IMG/VR virus record: IMGVR_UViG_3300045999_004366
Location: 1-24,314 of that record
Direction: 5' to 3' (one strand)
From: a virus
DNA length: 24,314 nt
Part shown: one piece after another, positions 3,040-24,314 of the stretch
Layout of the letters: each line of letters starts with the position of its first letter
Numbering within the stretch: the stretch's first letter is position 1
The notes under the pieces: generated by a model
Databases searched by the model: none
Seen by the model: only the letters and a program-made list of their open reading frames with translations
Told to the model about the DNA's origin: nothing
Made by a program: the position numbers and the translations under genes

Positions 3040-4031
3040 TACAGAATTTCCTGAACAAGCGGCATTCCACGCGGGCTTTGTCTGACGAGGAATTTAACAG
3101 CATTCTTCCTCAACTTGCGGTTGAATTGTCTGCTGTTGATTTCGTTCCGCGCTTCACGGAAGAAGAACTCCGAAAAGATTGGGATAGGCTACGGCTGTGG
3201 TCAGCAAATGGAACCCACATCAGCAGCACCTCTAGGGCAGGAATGAAGTTGTGTGAGCATTTTTTTCCGAACTTTTGGGATATAGAGGACAGCAAGGGCA
3301 ATTCGTTTCGCAAACTGTGGGCAGATCCGCAGTTGCTTGAAAAGGTTCTGCGTTGGAACAGAAAATCCCATTCAACTCCGTATCTCTCCGAACTGCGGCG
3401 CGGAGTGTATTTCTGCGGAGGTCTTTGCAAGTCCACAATGTATCGTCCTCAGATTGCCCGACTTGTCACCAAAGGATGCGGCAGAGTTCTTGATCCGTGC
3501 ATGGGATGGGGCGGGAGATTGCTTGGGAGCGTTGCTAGTGGAGCCGAGTATGTGGGATTTGATCCGAACACGGAAACATTCCGTCATCTGAATGAACTGG
3601 TTGAGTTTTTGGGAATACAGCACAAGGTTAGACTGATCTGCGATGATGCCATGAACATGGACTCATACGATTTGGGTAAGTTTGATGTGGTGCTGACCTC
3701 GCCTCCTTACTTTGATCTTGAGGTGTATTCTCACGAAACCACACAGTCGGTTGCGTCTCGTACAACCTATGAAGCATGGAACAACGGATTCCTTGCACCA
3801 CTCATACAGAAATCGGTTGCACATCTAAATGAGAACGGAAAGTCTTGTTGGAATGTGGCAAAAGTGAAGAACCACGATATGTGGGAAAGCGTGGAAACCG
3901 CCCACGCCGATCTTGGATTTGCAGCAATAAAAGAATACGGAGTTTCTTCATCGGCAAGACAAGTGAATCAGAGTGCTAGTAAAAACAAAAAGACGGTTGA
4001 TCGGACAGTTGTATATTCAAGAAAGGATTAA
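3036..4031 (+). CDS. Class I AdoMet-dependent DNA methyltransferase (motif I before motif IV)
   Basis: This is a second putative DNA amino-methyltransferase, 331 aa from the ATG at 3036, which overlaps the upstream TGA; an in-frame TTG at 2946 lies inside the preceding gene and is rejected. The AdoMet-binding loop is VLDPCMGWGGRLLG (151-164), the acidic strand-end is VGFDPN (173-178), and the catalytic motif TSPPYF is at 221-226. The order I then IV differs from the methyltransferase at 1478, so the two are not a recent duplication. Residues 1-140 are an extra helical N-terminal part (EEELRKDWDRLRLW, 42-55) whose role I cannot name; it might read DNA or bind the neighbouring protein. An RNA or protein substrate is less likely but cannot be excluded. 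Confidence 0.8.
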   Translation: MIQNFLNKRHSTRALSDEEFNSILPQLAVELSAVDFVPRFTEEELRKDWDRLRLWSANGTHISSTSRAGMKLCEHFFPNFWDIEDSKGNSFRKLWADPQLLEKVLRWNRKSHSTPYLSELRRGVYFCGGLCKSTMYRPQIARLVTKGCGRVLDPCMGWGGRLLGSVASGAEYVGFDPNTETFRHLNELVEFLGIQHKVRLICDDAMNMDSYDLGKFDVVLTSPPYFDLEVYSHETTQSVASRTTYEAWNNGFLAPLIQKSVAHLNENGKSCWNVAKVKNHDMWESVETAHADLGFAAIKEYGVSSSARQVNQSASKNKKTVDRTVVYSRKD

Positions 4032-7980: not shown

Positions 7981-9026
7981 AACTAAAGGACATTCTGAAG
8001 GCAGCAGGAAACAAGTACGCCACCGTAGCCTCTGACGGCTTGGAGGGCAGCGATGTAAAGGGATTCATTTCCACGGGATCGTATGCGTTCAACGCGCTCC
8101 TGAGCGGTTCCATCCACGGTGGCATCCCCGACAACAAGATCGTGGCTCTTGCAGGAGAGCAAGCCACGGGCAAGACCTACTTTGCTCTCAATGTGGTGCG
8201 CGAGTTCCTGAACTCCGATCCCAACGCGATGGTCATGTACTTTGACACGGAGCAAGCCATCACTTCCGATCTGCTGAAGTCCCGTGGCATTGACACCGAC
8301 CGCGTGGCTGTGCTGCCCGTGGCTACCGTGGAGGAGTTCCGCCACCAGTGCGTCCTGTCGGTGGACAAGTACCTTGAAGCAGACAAGGACTCCCGCCCCC
8401 GCATGATGATCGTGCTTGACTCGCTTGGAATGTTGTCCACCGAGAAGGAGATGAACGACACCGCAGAGGGCAAGAACACCCGCGACATGACTCGCGCACA
8501 GGTCACGAAGGCAGCGTTCCGCGTCCTGACCATCAAGTTGGGTCATGCGCGGATTCCCCTGCTGATGACGAACCACACCTACGATGTGGTTGGTGCGTAT
8601 GTTCCCACGAAGGAGATGGGCGGCGGCAGCGGTCTGAAGTATGCCGCGTCCACGATCATCTACCTGTCCAAGAAGAAGGACAAGGTGGACAACGAGGTGG
8701 TGGGCAACATCATCCACTGCAAGGCGTACAAGAGCCGCCTGACGAAGCAGGACAAGATGGTGGATGTGCAGTTGAACTTTGAGACAGGGCTGAACAAGTA
8801 CTACGGTCTGCTTGATGTCGCCATCAAGTACGGTATCTTCAAGAAGGTGTCCACGAAGATTGAACTGCCCAACGGCAAGACGGCTTTTGAGTCGCAGATC
8901 AACAAGAATCCCGAGAAGTACTACACAGACGAGATTCTTGCTGCCATTGATGCCGCAGCGAAGCGGGAGTTCTGCTACGGATCAGACGAGAAGCCACCAG
9001 AGGAGTCCGCCGATGGAGATGAATGA
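7977..9026 (+). CDS. uvsX: UvsX-like RecA-family recombinase
   Basis: The protein (349 aa; T4 UvsX is 391) forms filaments on single-stranded DNA and drives strand exchange for recombination-dependent replication and repair. Visible motifs are Walker A GEQATGKT (60-67), the catalytic glutamate in YFDTEQA (E92), Walker B MMIVLDSLG (143-151, D148), MTNHTYD (197-203), and a glycine-rich loop MGGGSGLKY (214-222) matching the DNA-binding L2 region. The end is acidic (EKPPEESADGDE), a usual UvsX/RecA feature that modulates DNA access and mediator binding. It overlaps the small genes on both sides and lies two genes ahead of the gp41-like helicase, as in T4 where uvsX, 40 and 41 are clustered. Confidence 0.94.
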   Translation: MKLKDILKAAGNKYATVASDGLEGSDVKGFISTGSYAFNALLSGSIHGGIPDNKIVALAGEQATGKTYFALNVVREFLNSDPNAMVMYFDTEQAITSDLLKSRGIDTDRVAVLPVATVEEFRHQCVLSVDKYLEADKDSRPRMMIVLDSLGMLSTEKEMNDTAEGKNTRDMTRAQVTKAAFRVLTIKLGHARIPLLMTNHTYDVVGAYVPTKEMGGGSGLKYAASTIIYLSKKKDKVDNEVVGNIIHCKAYKSRLTKQDKMVDVQLNFETGLNKYYGLLDVAIKYGIFKKVSTKIELPNGKTAFESQINKNPEKYYTDEILAAIDAAAKREFCYGSDEKPPEESADGDE

Positions 9027-9198
9027 GGAACCGCACAATACCGCTGCTACTGATGAGGCACTAAAGCATTTTCTTCAGTTACGGGAAACCCCCGAGTACA
9101 AAAAGCGTCAGGAAGCAATGGATCGTCTGGCTAGACTTGATGAGGAACTTGGACTAAATGAGCCAAACCGAGAAGACAATACTGGCGGGGCTGCTTAA
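9013..9198 (+). CDS. Small charged hypothetical protein between uvsX and helicase
   Basis: This 61-aa frame begins at ATG 9013, inside the end of uvsX, behind AGAGGAG (8998-9004); a second ATG at 9019 would give 59 aa. It runs 41 nt into the helicase gene in another frame. The protein is hydrophilic and helical, with a middle ETPEYKKRQEAMDRLARLD and no known motif. T4 has gene 40 in the same spot, but I see no likeness to gp40, which is a larger membrane-associated protein. Coding status is supported mainly by the ribosome site, the nested overlaps typical of this genome, and the otherwise unexplained 131-nt space between uvsX and the helicase start. Confidence 0.6.
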   Translation: MEMNEEPHNTAATDEALKHFLQLRETPEYKKRQEAMDRLARLDEELGLNEPNREDNTGGAA

Positions 9199-10573
9199 CG
9201 ACAGCGAATTCTGCAAGAAGACCATTCCGTTCTTGCAGGAGGAGTATTTCCTTGACCGCGTGGATCGGGCAGTGTTCCGATCCATCAAGGATTTCGTGAA
9301 CCAGTACAAGGGCATTCCCACAAAGGATGCACTGCTGATTGCACTTGAAGACAACAAGGGATTGACGGAGGACGAGTTCTCCAAGTGCAAGAGCCTCGTA
9401 GGAGACATGGGGAAGTCCCCCAAGCAGGACACGCAGTGGTTGAGTGATACCACCGAGAAGTTCTGCAAGGACAAAGCCATCTACAATGCCATTCTTGAAT
9501 CCATTCAGATCATAGACGGCAAGGACAAGGCACGGACTCCCCATGCTCTTCCCGAGATCCTGTCCAAGGCGTTGGCTGTCTCGTTTGACACCAATGTGGG
9601 ACACGATTTCCTTGAGGACTACGAGTCTCGCCATGAGTTCTACCACAGGGTGGAGCGAAAGGTTCCGTTTGACTTGGAGATGTTCAATGCCATCACCAAG
9701 GGCGGTATCTCTCCAAAGACCCTGAACATCATCATGGCAGGAACAGGCGTGGGCAAGTCGCTGTTCATGTGCCATCATGCGGCTGCGTGTCTCATGCAGA
9801 ACCGAAATGTGCTGTACATCACGCTTGAAATGGCTGAAGAGCGCATTGCGGAACGCATTGATGCAAACATCATGGACATCACGATGGATGAACTTCAGGA
9901 CTTGCCGCTTGAGATGTACGAGAAGCGGCTGAAGGGTGCGACTCGCGGCGTGAGCGGCAAACTCATCGTGAAGGAATATCCCACCTCCTTTGCGAATGTA
10001 AACCACTTCCGCATCCTGTTGGACGAGTTGCGGCTGAAGAAGCAGTTCGTGCCTGACATCATTTTCGTGGACTACATCAACATCTGCTCGTCTGCGCGAT
10101 TCAAGCACGGCAACAACATCAACTCGTATGGCTACATCAAGGCTATCGCAGAGGAGTTGCGTGGTCTGGCGATGGAGAGGGATGTTCCCATCGTGAGTGC
10201 CACACAGGTGAACCGCGCAGGGTTCTCGTCCACCGATGTTGACCTGACGGATACTTCAGAATCGTTCGGCTTGCCCCACACGGCAGACCTGATGATTGCG
10301 CTCATCACCACCGATGAGTTGGAGAAGGCAGGACAGATCATGGTGAAGCAGTTGAAGAACCGCTACAACGGCAAGGCTGCAAACAAGAAGTTCATCGTGG
10401 GCTTGAACTACGCCAAGATGAAGTTCTACGATATTGACAGCAGCGTTTCGGAAGACCTGATGGATGCGAACATCCAAAAGGGTGAAGAGGACGGATACGG
10501 ATCGGGATACGGTGCGAAGGACTTCACGGCGAAGTTCGGCAAAAAGCGTGACACTAGCGATTGGAGCATTTAA
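9158..10573 (+). CDS. 41: Replicative DNA helicase, DnaB/T4 gp41-like
   Basis: This hexameric 5'-3' helicase unwinds the fork and recruits primase. Its 471 aa nearly equal T4 gp41 (475). Residues 1-150 are the helical N-terminal collar region, with FLDRVDRAVFRSI like the DnaB-type N domain. The RecA-like motor has Walker A AGTGVGKS (194-201), catalytic glutamate E224 in ITLEMAEERI, Walker B IIFVDYINI (301-309, D305), the SATQVNR sensor (347-353, Q350) and the arginine-finger region KQLKNRYNG (398-405, R402). The end is Gly/Tyr-rich and charged. The start at 9158 has GAGGAAC (9144-9150) ahead of it. The partner primase is one gene downstream, separated by gmd. Confidence 0.95.
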   Translation: MSQTEKTILAGLLNDSEFCKKTIPFLQEEYFLDRVDRAVFRSIKDFVNQYKGIPTKDALLIALEDNKGLTEDEFSKCKSLVGDMGKSPKQDTQWLSDTTEKFCKDKAIYNAILESIQIIDGKDKARTPHALPEILSKALAVSFDTNVGHDFLEDYESRHEFYHRVERKVPFDLEMFNAITKGGISPKTLNIIMAGTGVGKSLFMCHHAAACLMQNRNVLYITLEMAEERIAERIDANIMDITMDELQDLPLEMYEKRLKGATRGVSGKLIVKEYPTSFANVNHFRILLDELRLKKQFVPDIIFVDYINICSSARFKHGNNINSYGYIKAIAEELRGLAMERDVPIVSATQVNRAGFSSTDVDLTDTSESFGLPHTADLMIALITTDELEKAGQIMVKQLKNRYNGKAANKKFIVGLNYAKMKFYDIDSSVSEDLMDANIQKGEEDGYGSGYGAKDFTAKFGKKRDTSDWSI

Positions 10574-12804: not shown

Positions 12805-13504
12805 CAACGGATTCGTGCAGTATGTTGACCACATGGGCAATGACCTGACCGTGGTGAACTCTGCGCGTGTTTCATTCAACAAGGAGAGCGATTGGGAATC
12901 CGAACCTGATTGGCGAGGCTACCATCCGCGCACACTTTCCGACAAGGACAAGAAACTCATCGGGTATCTTGCCAAGCACAAGCACTGGACTCCGTTCGCG
13001 CATCCACAGATCACCCTGCGGATCAAGGCTCCCATCTTCATTCGCACCCAACTCTTCAAGCACAAGGTTGGATTCACCGAGAACGAAGTCAGCCGCCGCT
13101 ATGTGAGTGATCCGCCGACCGTGTATTTTCCACATTGGCGCGGCAAGCCCACAAACGGCGCAAAGCAGGGGTCTGAAGACTTCATGCCCATAGATGATGC
13201 GTACAACACCGTGAGCCGCCACTACGAAATGTGTGTGCGGGAAGCACTGTTCTCCTACGAACAACTCCTGAAGTTGGGCGTGGCTCCTGAACAGGCACGG
13301 GCTGTGCTTCCGCAAGGAACCTATACCGAATGGTGGTGGACAGGTTCGCTTGCAGCGTTTGCGCGGGTGTATGCACAGCGCAGCGATCCTCATGCCCAAT
13401 GGGAATGCCAGCAGTACGCAGCGGCGTTCGGTGAGATCATAGCACCGCTTTTCCCCCATTCGTGGGCTGCTCTGACGCAGAAAGCACCCGCCCCTGAAGC
13501 CTAA
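12779..13504 (+). CDS. thyX: Flavin-dependent thymidylate synthase ThyX, variant signature
   Basis: ThyX methylates dUMP to dTMP using methylene-tetrahydrofolate, FAD and NADPH. The 241-aa protein has the usual length and order: WTPFAHPQITL (70-80), then FKHKVGFTENEVSRRY (93-108), which is the ThyX motif RHR-x7/8-S with both arginines of RHR replaced by lysine (KHK, 94-96), while NE, S105, R106, R107 and Y108 are kept. The C-terminal part has EQARAVLPQGTYTEWWW, the conserved dUMP-site region (ARxxLP). Similar non-RHR forms occur in some marine phage ThyX proteins, so the enzyme is probably active. Together with the class II ribonucleotide reductase at 21148 it makes the phage partly self-sufficient for dTTP. 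The ATG at 12779 lies inside the preceding small gene. Confidence 0.92.
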   Translation: MEKQIKVLDNGFVQYVDHMGNDLTVVNSARVSFNKESDWESEPDWRGYHPRTLSDKDKKLIGYLAKHKHWTPFAHPQITLRIKAPIFIRTQLFKHKVGFTENEVSRRYVSDPPTVYFPHWRGKPTNGAKQGSEDFMPIDDAYNTVSRHYEMCVREALFSYEQLLKLGVAPEQARAVLPQGTYTEWWWTGSLAAFARVYAQRSDPHAQWECQQYAAAFGEIIAPLFPHSWAALTQKAPAPEA

Positions 13505-13508
13505 ATAC
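13501..13508 (+). promoter_or_regulatory. CTAAATAC, T4-late-promoter-like box before the collagen-like fibre
   Basis: CTAAATAC overlaps the thyX stop and lies 4 nt before the fibre ATG. T4 late promoters use TATAAATA, commonly followed by C. The same word occurs at 16392 and (CTAAATA) at 24294. The very short distance here would give an almost leaderless transcript, so this copy may be fortuitous. Confidence 0.4.
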
Positions 13509-13512
13509 AGGG

Positions 13513-21147: not shown

Positions 21148-23067
21148 ATGAAGCGATTGCCTACCCTCTATCAGGATTTCATCCACCTTTCCCGTTACAG
21201 CCGTTGGATTGAATCCGAGAAACGCCGCGAGTCTTGGGAAGAAACGGTTGACCGTTACTTCCGCTTCTTTGACGAGCATTTCACCGAGCGGGGCGTGAAG
21301 ATAAATAAGGCAGTCCGCGAAGAACTCCGTGAAGCAGTGCTGAACCTTGAGGTGATGCCGTCCATGCGGTCGCTGATGACCGCAGGAGAAGCACTCAAGC
21401 GTGACAACACCGCAGGCTACAACTGCTCCTATGTCGCGGTCAACAAGGTTCGCGCATTTGATGAGATCCTGTATGTTCTCATGTGCGGAACTGGTGTAGG
21501 CTTCAGCGTGGAGAGGCAGTATGTTGAAAAACTTCCTACAATCGCTGAAGAGTTTACTAACAGCGATACTCTCATTGTGGTCAAGGACTCCAAGGAAGGT
21601 TGGGCAAAAGCCTACCGAGAACTGGTATCCCTACTTATTGGAGGTCAAATCCCCCGATGGGACTTGTCTCACATTCGTCCTGCTGGTTCCCGCCTCAAGA
21701 CTTTCGGTGGACGCGCAAGTGGACCTCAGCCGCTTGAAGACCTCTTCCGATTTACCGTCAGCACTTTTAAGAAGAGTGCTGGCAGAAAACTCACCTCCAT
21801 TGAATGTCACGACATTATCTGTAAAATTGCAGAGATTGTCGTTGTCGGAGGTGTCCGTAGATCGGCTCTTATCTCGCTATCCAATCTCACGGACGAGAGG
21901 ATGCGTGATGCAAAGGTTGGGCAGTGGTGGTTGGACAACCCCCAAAGGGCGTTAGCCAACAACTCCGTAGCCTTCAAGGAGAAGCCAGAGATCGGCACAT
22001 TCATGGAGGAGTGGCTGTCGCTCTACAAGAGCAAGAGCGGTGAGCGCGGCATCTTCAACCGTCAAGCCGCACAGAAGACCGTGGAGAAACTTGGGGATCG
22101 CCGTGATGCGTCTTACGAGTTCGGCACGAACCCCTGCTCCGAGATCATTCTCCGCGACAAGGAGTTCTGCAATCTGTCCGAGGTGATTGTTCGCGCTGAT
22201 GACACTCCTGATACGCTGAAGCGCAAGGTGCGCCTTGCTGCCATTCTTGGCACTTGGCAAGCCTCGCTCACCTACTTCCCGTACCTCAGCAGCGATTGGA
22301 AGCGCAATTGTGAAGAGGAGTGCCTGCTTGGTGTTTCGCTCACAGGCATTCTTGACAACCACTTCATGCGAACGCAGGGCGACAATCTCAATGTGCTGCT
22401 TGAACTGCTCAAGGCTGACGCGGTTGCCACGAACAAGGAGTGGGCTAAAAAGATCGGCATCAACCCCGCAGCGGCTATTACTTGCGTGAAGCCAAGCGGC
22501 ACGGTGTCACAGTTGACGGATGCGGCTAGCGGCATCCATGCTCGTCACAACGAATACTACATTCGTACCGTTCGTGCCGACCGCAAAGATCCCATGTGTC
22601 AGTTTATGATTGACAAGGGATTTCCTGCGGAGCCGTGTGTGATGCGTCCTGATCACACGATGGTGTTCTCGTTCCCTCAGAAGGCTGTGGGATCGGTGAC
22701 TCGCAACGACATGACCGCCATTCAGCACTTGGAGTTGTGGCTCACCTATCAGCGTCACTGGTGCGAACACAAGCCAAGCATCACGGTCACGGTGCGAGAG
22801 CATGAGTGGATGGAGGTTGGTGCGTGGGTGTACGCGCACTTTGACGAGATCAGCGGCATCTCGTTCCTGCCCCACTCCGATCACACCTATCAGCAGGCTC
22901 CGTATCAGGACTGCACAGCGGAGCAGTATGAAGCCGCTCTTGCGAAACTGCCGCAGTCCATTGATTGGAGTGAACTCACACAGTACGAGAAGTCAGACAC
23001 CACGAAGGGAACGCAGACCTTTGCGTGTTCAGGCGACAAGTGCGAAGTGGTTGACCTGACTACATAA
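21148..23067 (+). CDS. nrdJ: Adenosylcobalamin-dependent (class II) ribonucleotide reductase, monomeric RTPR-like
   Basis: This enzyme reduces ribonucleotides to deoxyribonucleotides using a coenzyme B12 radical, so it works with or without oxygen. At 639 aa it is shorter than the 739-aa Lactobacillus leichmannii enzyme. Matching segments are YNCSYVAV (C93, the first redox cysteine), GTGVGFSV, LSHIRPAGSRLKTFGGRASG, VRRSALI, NNSVAF, TNPCSEI (C330, radical cysteine, with E332), FCNLSEV (C341, second redox cysteine; the 11-residue spacing is identical to 408/419 of the reference), VSLTGI and KPSGTVSQLTDAASG. The tail has CSGDKC (627, 632), the swinging C-x4-C pair. No partner radical subunit or class I/III gene is present. 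AAGGAG at 21135-21140 sets the start. It stands as its own unit between two terminators and needs host- or environment-supplied cobalamin. Confidence 0.94.
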   Translation: MKRLPTLYQDFIHLSRYSRWIESEKRRESWEETVDRYFRFFDEHFTERGVKINKAVREELREAVLNLEVMPSMRSLMTAGEALKRDNTAGYNCSYVAVNKVRAFDEILYVLMCGTGVGFSVERQYVEKLPTIAEEFTNSDTLIVVKDSKEGWAKAYRELVSLLIGGQIPRWDLSHIRPAGSRLKTFGGRASGPQPLEDLFRFTVSTFKKSAGRKLTSIECHDIICKIAEIVVVGGVRRSALISLSNLTDERMRDAKVGQWWLDNPQRALANNSVAFKEKPEIGTFMEEWLSLYKSKSGERGIFNRQAAQKTVEKLGDRRDASYEFGTNPCSEIILRDKEFCNLSEVIVRADDTPDTLKRKVRLAAILGTWQASLTYFPYLSSDWKRNCEEECLLGVSLTGILDNHFMRTQGDNLNVLLELLKADAVATNKEWAKKIGINPAAAITCVKPSGTVSQLTDAASGIHARHNEYYIRTVRADRKDPMCQFMIDKGFPAEPCVMRPDHTMVFSFPQKAVGSVTRNDMTAIQHLELWLTYQRHWCEHKPSITVTVREHEWMEVGAWVYAHFDEISGISFLPHSDHTYQQAPYQDCTAEQYEAALAKLPQSIDWSELTQYEKSDTTKGTQTFACSGDKCEVVDLTT

Positions 23068-23126
23068 AAGGTCGCCTCTGTCTTAAGATACGCGACAACC
23101 CCACGGGAGATCGCATCTCTCGTCCG

Positions 23127-23160
23127 ACAACCCCCGTTTCGGCGGGGGTTGTTTCTTTTT
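23127..23160 (+). terminator. Rho-independent terminator after ribonucleotide reductase
   Basis: A perfect 10-bp stem ACAACCCCCG/CGGGGGTTGT (23127-23136 with 23143-23152) and a TTTCGG loop is followed by TTCTTTTT. It lies 60 nt after the nrdJ stop. The intervening bases contain two weaker inverted repeats (GTCGC/GCGAC and GAGAT/ATCTC), so the transcript end is structured. Confidence 0.95.
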
Positions 23161-23205
23161 GTAAATCTGTCAATTTTTATTCCGCCAAGTCCACTAGATA
23201 TTTAC

Positions 23206-23979
23206 ATGAAGAGAGGTGCAGTCCATTCTCTTCTCCTGGCGTTTGCACTCGTCTTGCTGCAAGCCTGTGCATGGGACATCGCCGCCACCACTGCGCCGAA
23301 GAGCGCACCCCCGCCGAAGAGCGGGGAGATTGAACTCGTAGAAGCCCCCGTGGAGCCAGCCTTCATGCGGGGCTTCTCTCGTATTTCTGAATGCGAAGAC
23401 ACCGCCGTGGGTGCGCTAGCACGGGAGGACGGCACGGTATACGGCAGCGGTGTGCTTGTGGGGTCTTCCCATGTTCTCACCGCCGCGCACTGCACCGAAG
23501 GGATAAAGCCCTACTGGTTCATCTCTGGTGGGGAATTCTTCAAGATCCACTCTGTTACGGTGCATCCACAGTACAAAATTGGAGAGGTCATTTTCGTGGA
23601 TCTAGCCATGCTGCGCTTGGACACGCCATGCCCTGCCACACCCGCCACGCTGCCACAGAAAGGCTACCAGTTGGCGCGTGGAGAGGATCTGACGGCAATA
23701 GGCTACGGAGGGGGAATACGGCGCAGAAGCAATCCTGGCGTGCTGTGGAACTACGGAACGCTTGTAGAGGAACCCACCGTATTCAAAATGTTGCCCCTTG
23801 ACGGCACCATCTGGTTTGGTGATTCGGGTGGGGCAATTTACGACAATAGCGGAGTTCTCGTTGGGATCATCTCCTCATTGGGTGTTACGAGGGGACATCT
23901 TTTCGAGAACTCCGCTACCAGGCTTGATCTTTTCCGCAATTGGATCACAGAAACAATGGAGGCTACCCCATGCAACTGA
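23206..23979 (+). CDS. Trypsin-like (S1/chymotrypsin fold) serine protease, putative lipoprotein
   Basis: This 257-aa protein starts MKRG, has a hydrophobic segment (residues 8-18) and a lipobox LLQAC with C21, so it is probably exported by Sec and lipidated. A proline-rich linker follows to about 50. The catalytic domain shows the triad in order: LTAAHC (His95), DLAML (Asp132) and GDSGGA (Ser207), with YGSGVLVG and VGIISS strands around them. The domain is complete at about 200 residues. There is no clear Shine-Dalgarno before 23206; a TTG start at 23149 would lie within the terminator tail and is less likely. The gene stands alone after a terminator. A membrane-anchored or secreted protease is unusual for a phage; it may act in lysis, superinfection exclusion or host surface remodelling. 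Substrate unknown. Confidence 0.88.
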   Translation: MKRGAVHSLLLAFALVLLQACAWDIAATTAPKSAPPPKSGEIELVEAPVEPAFMRGFSRISECEDTAVGALAREDGTVYGSGVLVGSSHVLTAAHCTEGIKPYWFISGGEFFKIHSVTVHPQYKIGEVIFVDLAMLRLDTPCPATPATLPQKGYQLARGEDLTAIGYGGGIRRRSNPGVLWNYGTLVEEPTVFKMLPLDGTIWFGDSGGAIYDNSGVLVGIISSLGVTRGHLFENSATRLDLFRNWITETMEATPCN

Positions 23980-24056
23980 CCCGCACGCAAAGAGTCCTGT
24001 TGTCGGCTTGCAGTTTTTTAGTTGGCGTTCTGCTCGCCAGACTCGTTGGGCTGTAG
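23970..24056 (+). CDS. Possible 28-aa single-span membrane peptide
   Basis: An ATG at 23970, preceded by GGAG (23958-23961), opens a 28-codon frame overlapping the protease end by 10 nt. The peptide has a short basic start (MQLTRTQR) followed by an unbroken hydrophobic stretch (residues 9-28, with LLSAC and FLVGVLLARLVGL). It could be a tiny membrane protein, perhaps acting with the protease or in lysis. It is too short to be certain it is translated, and it overlaps the 3' end of a minus-strand gene. Confidence 0.4.
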   Translation: MQLTRTQRVLLSACSFLVGVLLARLVGL

Positions 24057-24257
24057 AACCTGTGCTGCTTGCAGTGCTGTCAAAGAAGTAGAAACTTCAG
24101 ACAGTCTCTTTTCAATTGCAGCCTTCTGCTTCTCGGCAATCTGCAACTTGGCTTCAAGCAAAATGGTCTGGTTCATCAACATGGTCACCTTGTCCTGAAG
24201 AACGGGGATCAGGACTGTCTCATTGTAATTCTCCGTCTGTGCATTTAATGGAATCAT
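24018..24257 (-). CDS. Coiled-coil hypothetical protein (convergent gene)
   Basis: This 79-aa protein on the minus strand is the only minus-strand gene supported here. The ATG at 24257 is chosen because AAAGGAGG (24274 down to 24267) stands 9 nt before it; an upstream ATG at 24281 would put that ribosome site inside the coding region. Residues about 15-63 form a continuous heptad-type helix (MLMNQTILLEAKLQIAEKQ, then IEKRLSEVSTSLTAL), and the tail is polar (QPNESGEQNAN). I do not recognise it. A small, helical, separately transcribed gene pointing against the late block may be early or regulatory, or a small virion protein. The CTACATA motif lies 24 nt before its start. Confidence 0.72.
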   Translation of the reverse strand: MIPLNAQTENYNETVLIPVLQDKVTMLMNQTILLEAKLQIAEKQKAAIEKRLSEVSTSLTALQAAQVLQPNESGEQNAN

Positions 24258-24281
24258 GAATGGATTCCTCCTTTCTACCAT

Positions 24282-24288: not shown

Positions 24289-24293
24289 GCAAC

Positions 24294-24300
24294 CTAAATA
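24294..24300 (+). promoter_or_regulatory. CTAAATA, T4-late-promoter-like box at window end
   Basis: CCTAAATA at 24293-24300 precedes ATGGATATGG at the window edge. It faces rightward away from the minus-strand gene and could drive a plus-strand gene that begins at or beyond 24300. Nothing further is visible. Confidence 0.4.
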
Positions 24301-24314
24301 TGGATATGGTGCCC

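Follow-up and report, generated by a model that had tools for sequence, protein, structure and literature searches.

Discussions of how phages lyse cells and control receptors usually revolve around wall-cutting enzymes, spanins, and binding proteins, and T4-type phages carry exchangeable cassettes that are bounded by promoters and terminators (morons). A search of the titles and abstract openings of open-licence papers returned nothing on phage-encoded lipoprotein S1 proteases or on T4-like planctomycete phages. Among lipoproteins of other phages, Llp of T5 is small and acts by binding FhuA from the periplasm (PMC9586334). Here we analyzed a window of 24,314 bases (the whole stretch of DNA studied), which is the record of an uncultured, T4-like phage and encodes a lipoprotein serine protease close to its right end. 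Upstream of the protease, the window carries UvsX-, helicase-, primase-, thymidylate-synthase-, and tail-fibre-like genes; the best matches to its DNA polymerase gene were cyanophages, with an identity of at most 49%. A frame at 1056-1481 resembles S-adenosylmethionine decarboxylase (phrog_3125, E = 5.4e-10).

The protease gene lies on the plus strand (23206-23979), with an ATG at 23206, coding sequence to 23976, and a TGA at 23977-23979. Its 257-aa product is laid out as a signal peptide (residues ~1-20), a lipid Cys (residue 21), a Pro-rich linker (~22-50), and a catalytic domain (~54-257). Pfam matched the protein to Trypsin (PF00089, E = 2.5e-15, 57.4 bits versus a cutoff of 20.6) and to Trypsin_2 (E = 1.7e-14). 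We aligned the window protein with those of 20 relative loci, whose identity to it is as low as 47%; H95, D132, S207 (in GDSGG), and C21 are unchanged in all 21 sequences. Across the 57 distinct entries with a late promoter box at the modal spacing (N5, see below), the His motif is present in 57 and GDSGG in 56, the single miss being a contig-end truncation. An AlphaFold2 model built from the 21-sequence alignment has a mean pLDDT of 77; values exceed 85 across much of the catalytic core, and the linker is poorly modeled. When searched against the PDB with Foldseek, it returned 1,700 matches at E ≤ 0.001 to S1 proteases (best E = 4.5e-12), and VIA-align gave Z scores of 24.1 to granzyme M and 23.8 to VesB, with trypsins at about 24 as well. 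By triad order, GDSGG motif, fold, and a Pfam score above the gathering cutoff, the protein is a member of peptidase family S1, and the original prediction of a complete His/Asp/Ser S1 protease with a lipobox was correct.

The description of this enzyme as trypsin-like holds for its fold and fails for its specificity. Counting back six residues from the catalytic Ser, the equivalent of trypsin Asp189 is a Thr in 21/21 sequences; Arg/Lys specificity is therefore not expected, and trypsin specificity is not supported by the aligned residues. A motif, [FY][ML]xGF, is conserved at residues 53-57, and residue 54 of the model aligns with residue 16, i.e., the mature N terminus of zymogen-type S1 enzymes. 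We speculate that cleavage near this motif might activate the protease or release it from its anchor. The protein weakly resembles models of the Do/DegP and MarP families (E ~4e-4), which raises the idea of a moron devoted to quality control or to defence in the periplasm, which would remove misfolded or hostile periplasmic proteins during infection in the manner of DegP. A related cassette in one contig (L127, see below) encodes a Trypsin_2 protease, as this idea would accommodate, but the score of 19.3 bits falls below the cutoffs of 416.2 (HtrA/DegP) and 250, Pfam shows no PDZ domain in the 257 aa, and the promoter is of the late type. We regard such a role as improbable.

The N terminus of the protease, MKRGAVHSLLLAFALVLLQAC, reads as a signal peptide ending in a lipobox (LQA-C21), followed by the Pro-rich linker. 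A PROSITE-like lipobox pattern fits 21/21 aligned proteases; among 20,000 shuffled versions of the N terminus of the window protein, it fits 588. It also fits 55/57 distinct N5 entries; the exceptions are L081 and L086 (CIPAC), and L101, which is not among the 57, has INC at this site. The basic start, hydrophobic stretch, and lipobox Cys expected of bacterial lipoproteins are all present. We infer from these features that the protease is exported and lipidated on C21. Position +2 relative to the lipid Cys (residue 22 of the window protein) is Ala or Val in most clades and Asp in one group (L018, L019, L025, L045, and L049), a difference that, by the E. coli sorting rule, would mean outer versus inner membrane. 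Retention of the signal peptide and lipobox throughout also led us to reject a virion or prohead protease, which the original prediction had likewise thought unlikely. Predicted late expression and the tail-fibre-like genes upstream in the window would suit such a protein; nevertheless, its export signal is kept, the proheads of T4-like phages use gp21, and we give the idea hardly any credence.

A T4-type late promoter box, ACTAGATA (23193-23200, plus strand), lies 5 nt before the protease ATG, and no Shine-Dalgarno sequence is seen before the gene in the window. This N5 spacing recurs in 57 of 73 distinct entries (L017 and L060 entries being one contig). The box is 1-3 nt further away in 11 others (N6 in L043, N7 in L121, and N8 in nine), a variant box stands at N5 in L101, and four entries are cut by contig ends. 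The T4-type late box is described as an 8-bp element that starts at position -13, and that of phage Aeh1 is reported to have a/gC at -13/-12 (PMC2988020). The protease box has a/gC at the same positions, and with the box at -13 to -6, the N5 spacing places the predicted start site at the A of the ATG. The window record is a fragment; a 96-kb relative (G001) encodes the late sigma factor gp55 (phrog_234, E = 7.9e-59), together with the clamp gp45. Since there is no Shine-Dalgarno sequence, the box sits at N5, and gp55 and gp45 are found in a relative, the protease is probably expressed late from a leaderless or nearly leaderless message.

An N5 box also precedes other late genes (ruvC-like, tail-fibre-like, and a 245-aa gene), which would imply that leaderless late messages serve several genes of these phages. 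Boxes exactly 5 nt before an ATG occur at 13500-13512 and 24293-24308 of the window and at 8929, 29927, and 40636 of G001. In a second class of late genes, the box lies 14-37 nt upstream, and many of these have, by eye, a Shine-Dalgarno sequence. Many small-gene proteins of G001 and G002 start with a K.F...L.E-like motif (e.g., G001 8929, 10224, 10745, and 28368), reminiscent of the capsid-targeting sequences of T4 internal proteins.

The cassette occupies a slot with well-defined borders. On its left lies a class II (B12-type) ribonucleotide reductase gene (21148-23067, plus strand; phrog_367, E = 7.9e-189), which holds this position in most relatives whose contigs extend far enough. Between this gene and the cassette is an intrinsic terminator (23126-23160, plus strand) with a 12-pair stem (23126-23153) and a T run, so that the protease does sit behind a terminator, as had been predicted. 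A pattern scan found three terminator-like sites versus a shuffle mean of 1.3 and is weak by itself; comparable elements are seen in L051, L064, and L066. On the right, a second late box, CCTAAATA (24293-24300, plus strand), stands 5 nt 5' of the ATG (24306) of a ruvC-like gene that extends beyond the window end and whose L028 homologue matches phrog_159 (E = 1.7e-29). Inside the slot, a convergent gene on the minus strand (24018-24281; likelier start ATG 24257) encodes a small coiled-coil-like protein of up to 87 aa, which has homologues in relatives and gave no match in Pfam or PHROG. Elsewhere, a conserved pair of genes adjoins the slot: in L028, a 145-aa membrane protein (8594-9028, phrog_38283) and a 98-aa protein (9043-9336) with an N-terminal lipobox, a membrane span, and a unimolecular-spanin-like layout with a short linker. 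In L101, by eye, the ribonucleotide reductase frame (37-1791) has an intein-like insert, and a nearby frame (3153-4007) resembles a homing endonuclease.

To survey the slot, we anchored on the ruvC-like gene with a 3-sequence alignment, which confirmed 123 loci, and kept the best 80. The S1 protease profile was found in 73 of these 80 contigs, and protease cargo that had been called rare for a phage is common in this lineage. The seven contigs without it (L064-L070) led to two observations. First, six of them (L065-L070) have an unrelated subtilisin-family (S8) ORF in the slot; that of L066 encodes 480 aa (PF00082, E = 5.1e-43; subtilisin E, E = 1.9e-37). In all six, the encoded protein starts with a hydrophobic stretch, ends in two dockerin-like repeats, and looks exported. 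The stretches flanking the swap align at 84% and 75% between L066 (S8) and L051 (S1). Second, the slot of L064 is cleanly empty: this contig runs collinear with L051 but lacks 1,095 bp, which hold the protease, the 28-aa frame described below, and the coiled-coil-like gene. An empty slot in 1 of the best 80 of 123 loci indicates that the protease function can be spared. Among 12 longer records, nine have S1, two have S8, one has neither, and none has both. That an unrelated protease fills the same slot suggests that these viruses require proteolysis beyond the host cytoplasm. The six S8 contigs form a closely related set, and the S8/S1 swap may reflect a single exchange event.

A scan for the S8 protein gave 31 loci, and the phage subtilisins with dockerin-like ends comprise L065-L070 and L124-L151. 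The catalytic Asp is a Glu in 34/34 phage S8 loci, which represent 23 distinct segments as some contigs are counted twice. Of nine cellular S8 loci tried, the same pattern read two (L152 and L160), which keep the Asp; L158, which it did not capture, has LDLG, and no reading was obtained for the other six. The S8 replacement may thus be weak or inactive, which softens the argument from the swap. The same Glu would fit a pseudoprotease or binding protein, with export and fold kept and catalysis unused, but the S1 triad is invariant in the 21 aligned sequences and its motifs persist across the N5 entries, and we consider this reading very improbable. Meanwhile, three T4-like contigs, one of 177 kb, carry another lipobox serine protease directly upstream of the S8 gene (L126-L128, 3161-3958, identical in sequence there; Trypsin_2, PF13365 E = 2.7e-18 in L127).

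A 28-aa single-span membrane peptide, MQLTRTQRVLLSACSFLVGVLLARLVGL, is encoded at 23970-24056 (plus strand, TAG stop after 24053), with a Shine-Dalgarno sequence, TGGAGG, 7 nt upstream (23957-23962, plus strand) that has TGGAGG-like counterparts in many relatives. The frame overlaps the protease end by 10 nt and the end of the convergent coiled-coil-like gene by 39 nt. Its best 15-aa mean hydropathy is 2.57, and Pfam found no family match that would link it to spanins or holins. All main clades have the frame, and its consensus is near MxLxRxQRVLLxAxSFLxGxLLARxxG[LF]; the hydrophobic frame with its own ribosome site was rightly predicted, and both it and the lipobox are conserved in relatives. 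Over 19 sequences, considering only codons outside the antisense overlap and with pairs that are not independent, pN/pS is 0.40 in frame, the two other forward frames give 1.14 and 1.27, and there are no stops. For the single pair of window and L040, it is 0.76 over 22 codons. Given the value of 0.40, we reject, for the overlap-free part, conservation as a by-product of the antisense gene; a mirror effect persists in the -2 frame (0.59). By these substitution patterns, the 28-aa frame evolves as a real coding sequence.

The 28-aa frame was present at 61 of 73 protease-bearing and 0 of 7 protease-less ruvC loci (best 80 of 123). The full set of 105 protease loci, in which some contigs figure twice, comprises 86 with the frame, 17 without it, and 2 in which it is cut. 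On a tree of 69 distinct proteases, its absences need eight changes, at least six of them forced by well-supported branches, and several losses leave its last codons in place. Long ORFs that resemble protease/28-aa fusions (L114, L115, L116, L117, and L119) are really deletions of the frame that keep these last codons. Repeated loss of the frame beside a retained protease means that the enzyme can do without it. The proposal that the two form a module therefore stands in part: the small frame is coding and never found without the protease at these loci, but the protease is kept without it.

Relatives of the protease were found in viral sequences. IMG/VR gave 25 loci with a single query sequence and 38 with an alignment, and tblastn against 50,697 deposited phage records gave none at E ≤ 0.01. 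In the genome collection, 36 stretches matched the S1 pattern and none was confirmed, while 298 Phycisphaerae genomes gave mostly partial matches (16/298 at E ≤ 1e-8); we accordingly name no bacterial donor for the S1 protease.

The sole good match of the S8 protein in the genome collection was a Phycisphaerae MAG (51% over residues 66-404), with one further match to an alphaproteobacterial MAG (26%). In a genome-by-genome search that covered class Phycisphaerae only, 87 of 298 genomes matched at E ≤ 1e-30, the best at 49% over residues 32-468, dockerin-like end included. This likeness hints at planctomycete hosts. The neighboring 145-aa membrane protein matched, among deposited phages, only Verrucomicrobia phage P8625 (two records) and phage C75C1; with the S8 matches, this tentatively points to a host in the PVC group. 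The best portal and polymerase matches were cyanophages at only ~49-53%, and we therefore took no host from them.

We suggest that the slot holds a late exchangeable cassette for proteolysis outside the cytoplasm, whose likeliest use is envelope breakdown and release, a reading to which we give somewhat more than an even chance. A gp55-type late promoter would drive a leaderless protease message. Led across the inner membrane by its signal peptide, given a lipid on Cys21, and tethered by the flexible Pro-rich linker, the product would present an active S1 protease to the periplasm or the outside, where it might cleave proteins of the host cell's envelope or surface as infection draws to its end. 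The 28-aa coupled peptide may be an optional membrane partner. An envelope-acting role, as originally predicted, is supported by the kept export signal and lipobox, the invariant triad, and the exchange for an unrelated, exported-looking protease. Sequence by itself fits lysis, superinfection exclusion, and surface cleavage alike, and gene neighborhood alone does not establish a part in lysis. Breakdown and release are favored because late expression is predicted, two unrelated proteases fill the slot, and three endolysin families (PF00959, PF01510, and PF13539) were found in 0/6 long, possibly incomplete records. The SLT endolysin family gave one sub-cutoff match in 1/6 of these records; as only four endolysin families were sought and the records are perhaps incomplete, missing endolysins prove little.

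A serious rival, and the second likeliest use, is removal of phage receptors: the lipoprotease would trim host surface proteins so that infected cells or debris stop binding phage (superinfection exclusion or anti-readsorption). Its lipoprotein topology is like that of the T5 superinfection-exclusion lipoprotein Llp, and the swap with another protease suits any surface-cutting role. However, Llp acts by binding rather than cutting (PMC9586334), the predicted expression of the protease is late rather than early, and no receptor is known. We judge receptor removal to be rather unlikely.

Planctomycete envelopes are often described as protein-rich, and a tentative, less than probable scenario is that of a Planctomycetota-infecting T4-like lineage whose late slot, with interchangeable S1 and S8 proteases, provides protease-based lysis of such an envelope from leaderless messages, with the 28-aa peptide tuning the S1 enzyme. 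Retention of an exported serine protease in a late slot throughout a divergent phage lineage, with one protease family swapped for another, would point to proteolysis of the host envelope as a regular phage function. The slot also offers a practical way into the phages of a little-studied host group and into the use of leaderless late messages by T4-like phages.

How does this locus compare with known systems? With granzyme M, Vibrio cholerae VesB, and trypsins, the phage protease shares the S1 fold (for granzyme M and VesB, rmsd 2.2-2.5 over 190-196 residues and 25-26% identity), the His/Asp/Ser order, and GDSGG. Unlike these enzymes, it is a virus-encoded lipoprotein with a Pro-rich linker; by counting, it has Thr for Asp189 and Leu (Ile in one) near 216, and lacks a clear zymogen IVGG start and Cys42. 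Phycisphaerae S8 proteases resemble the alternative slot gene, whose fold is unrelated to S1 and whose phage copies have Glu for the catalytic Asp. Like T4-type exchangeable cassettes, the locus has its own late promoter, a terminator before it, and a clean empty site in L064, but its cargo is an exported protease and two unrelated protease families alternate in it. Llp (T5) and Cor (T1-like) are likewise phage-encoded lipoproteins, and the phage protease may be envelope-acting as well; unlike Llp, which is small and acts by binding (PMC9586334), it has a full protease domain and predicted late expression.
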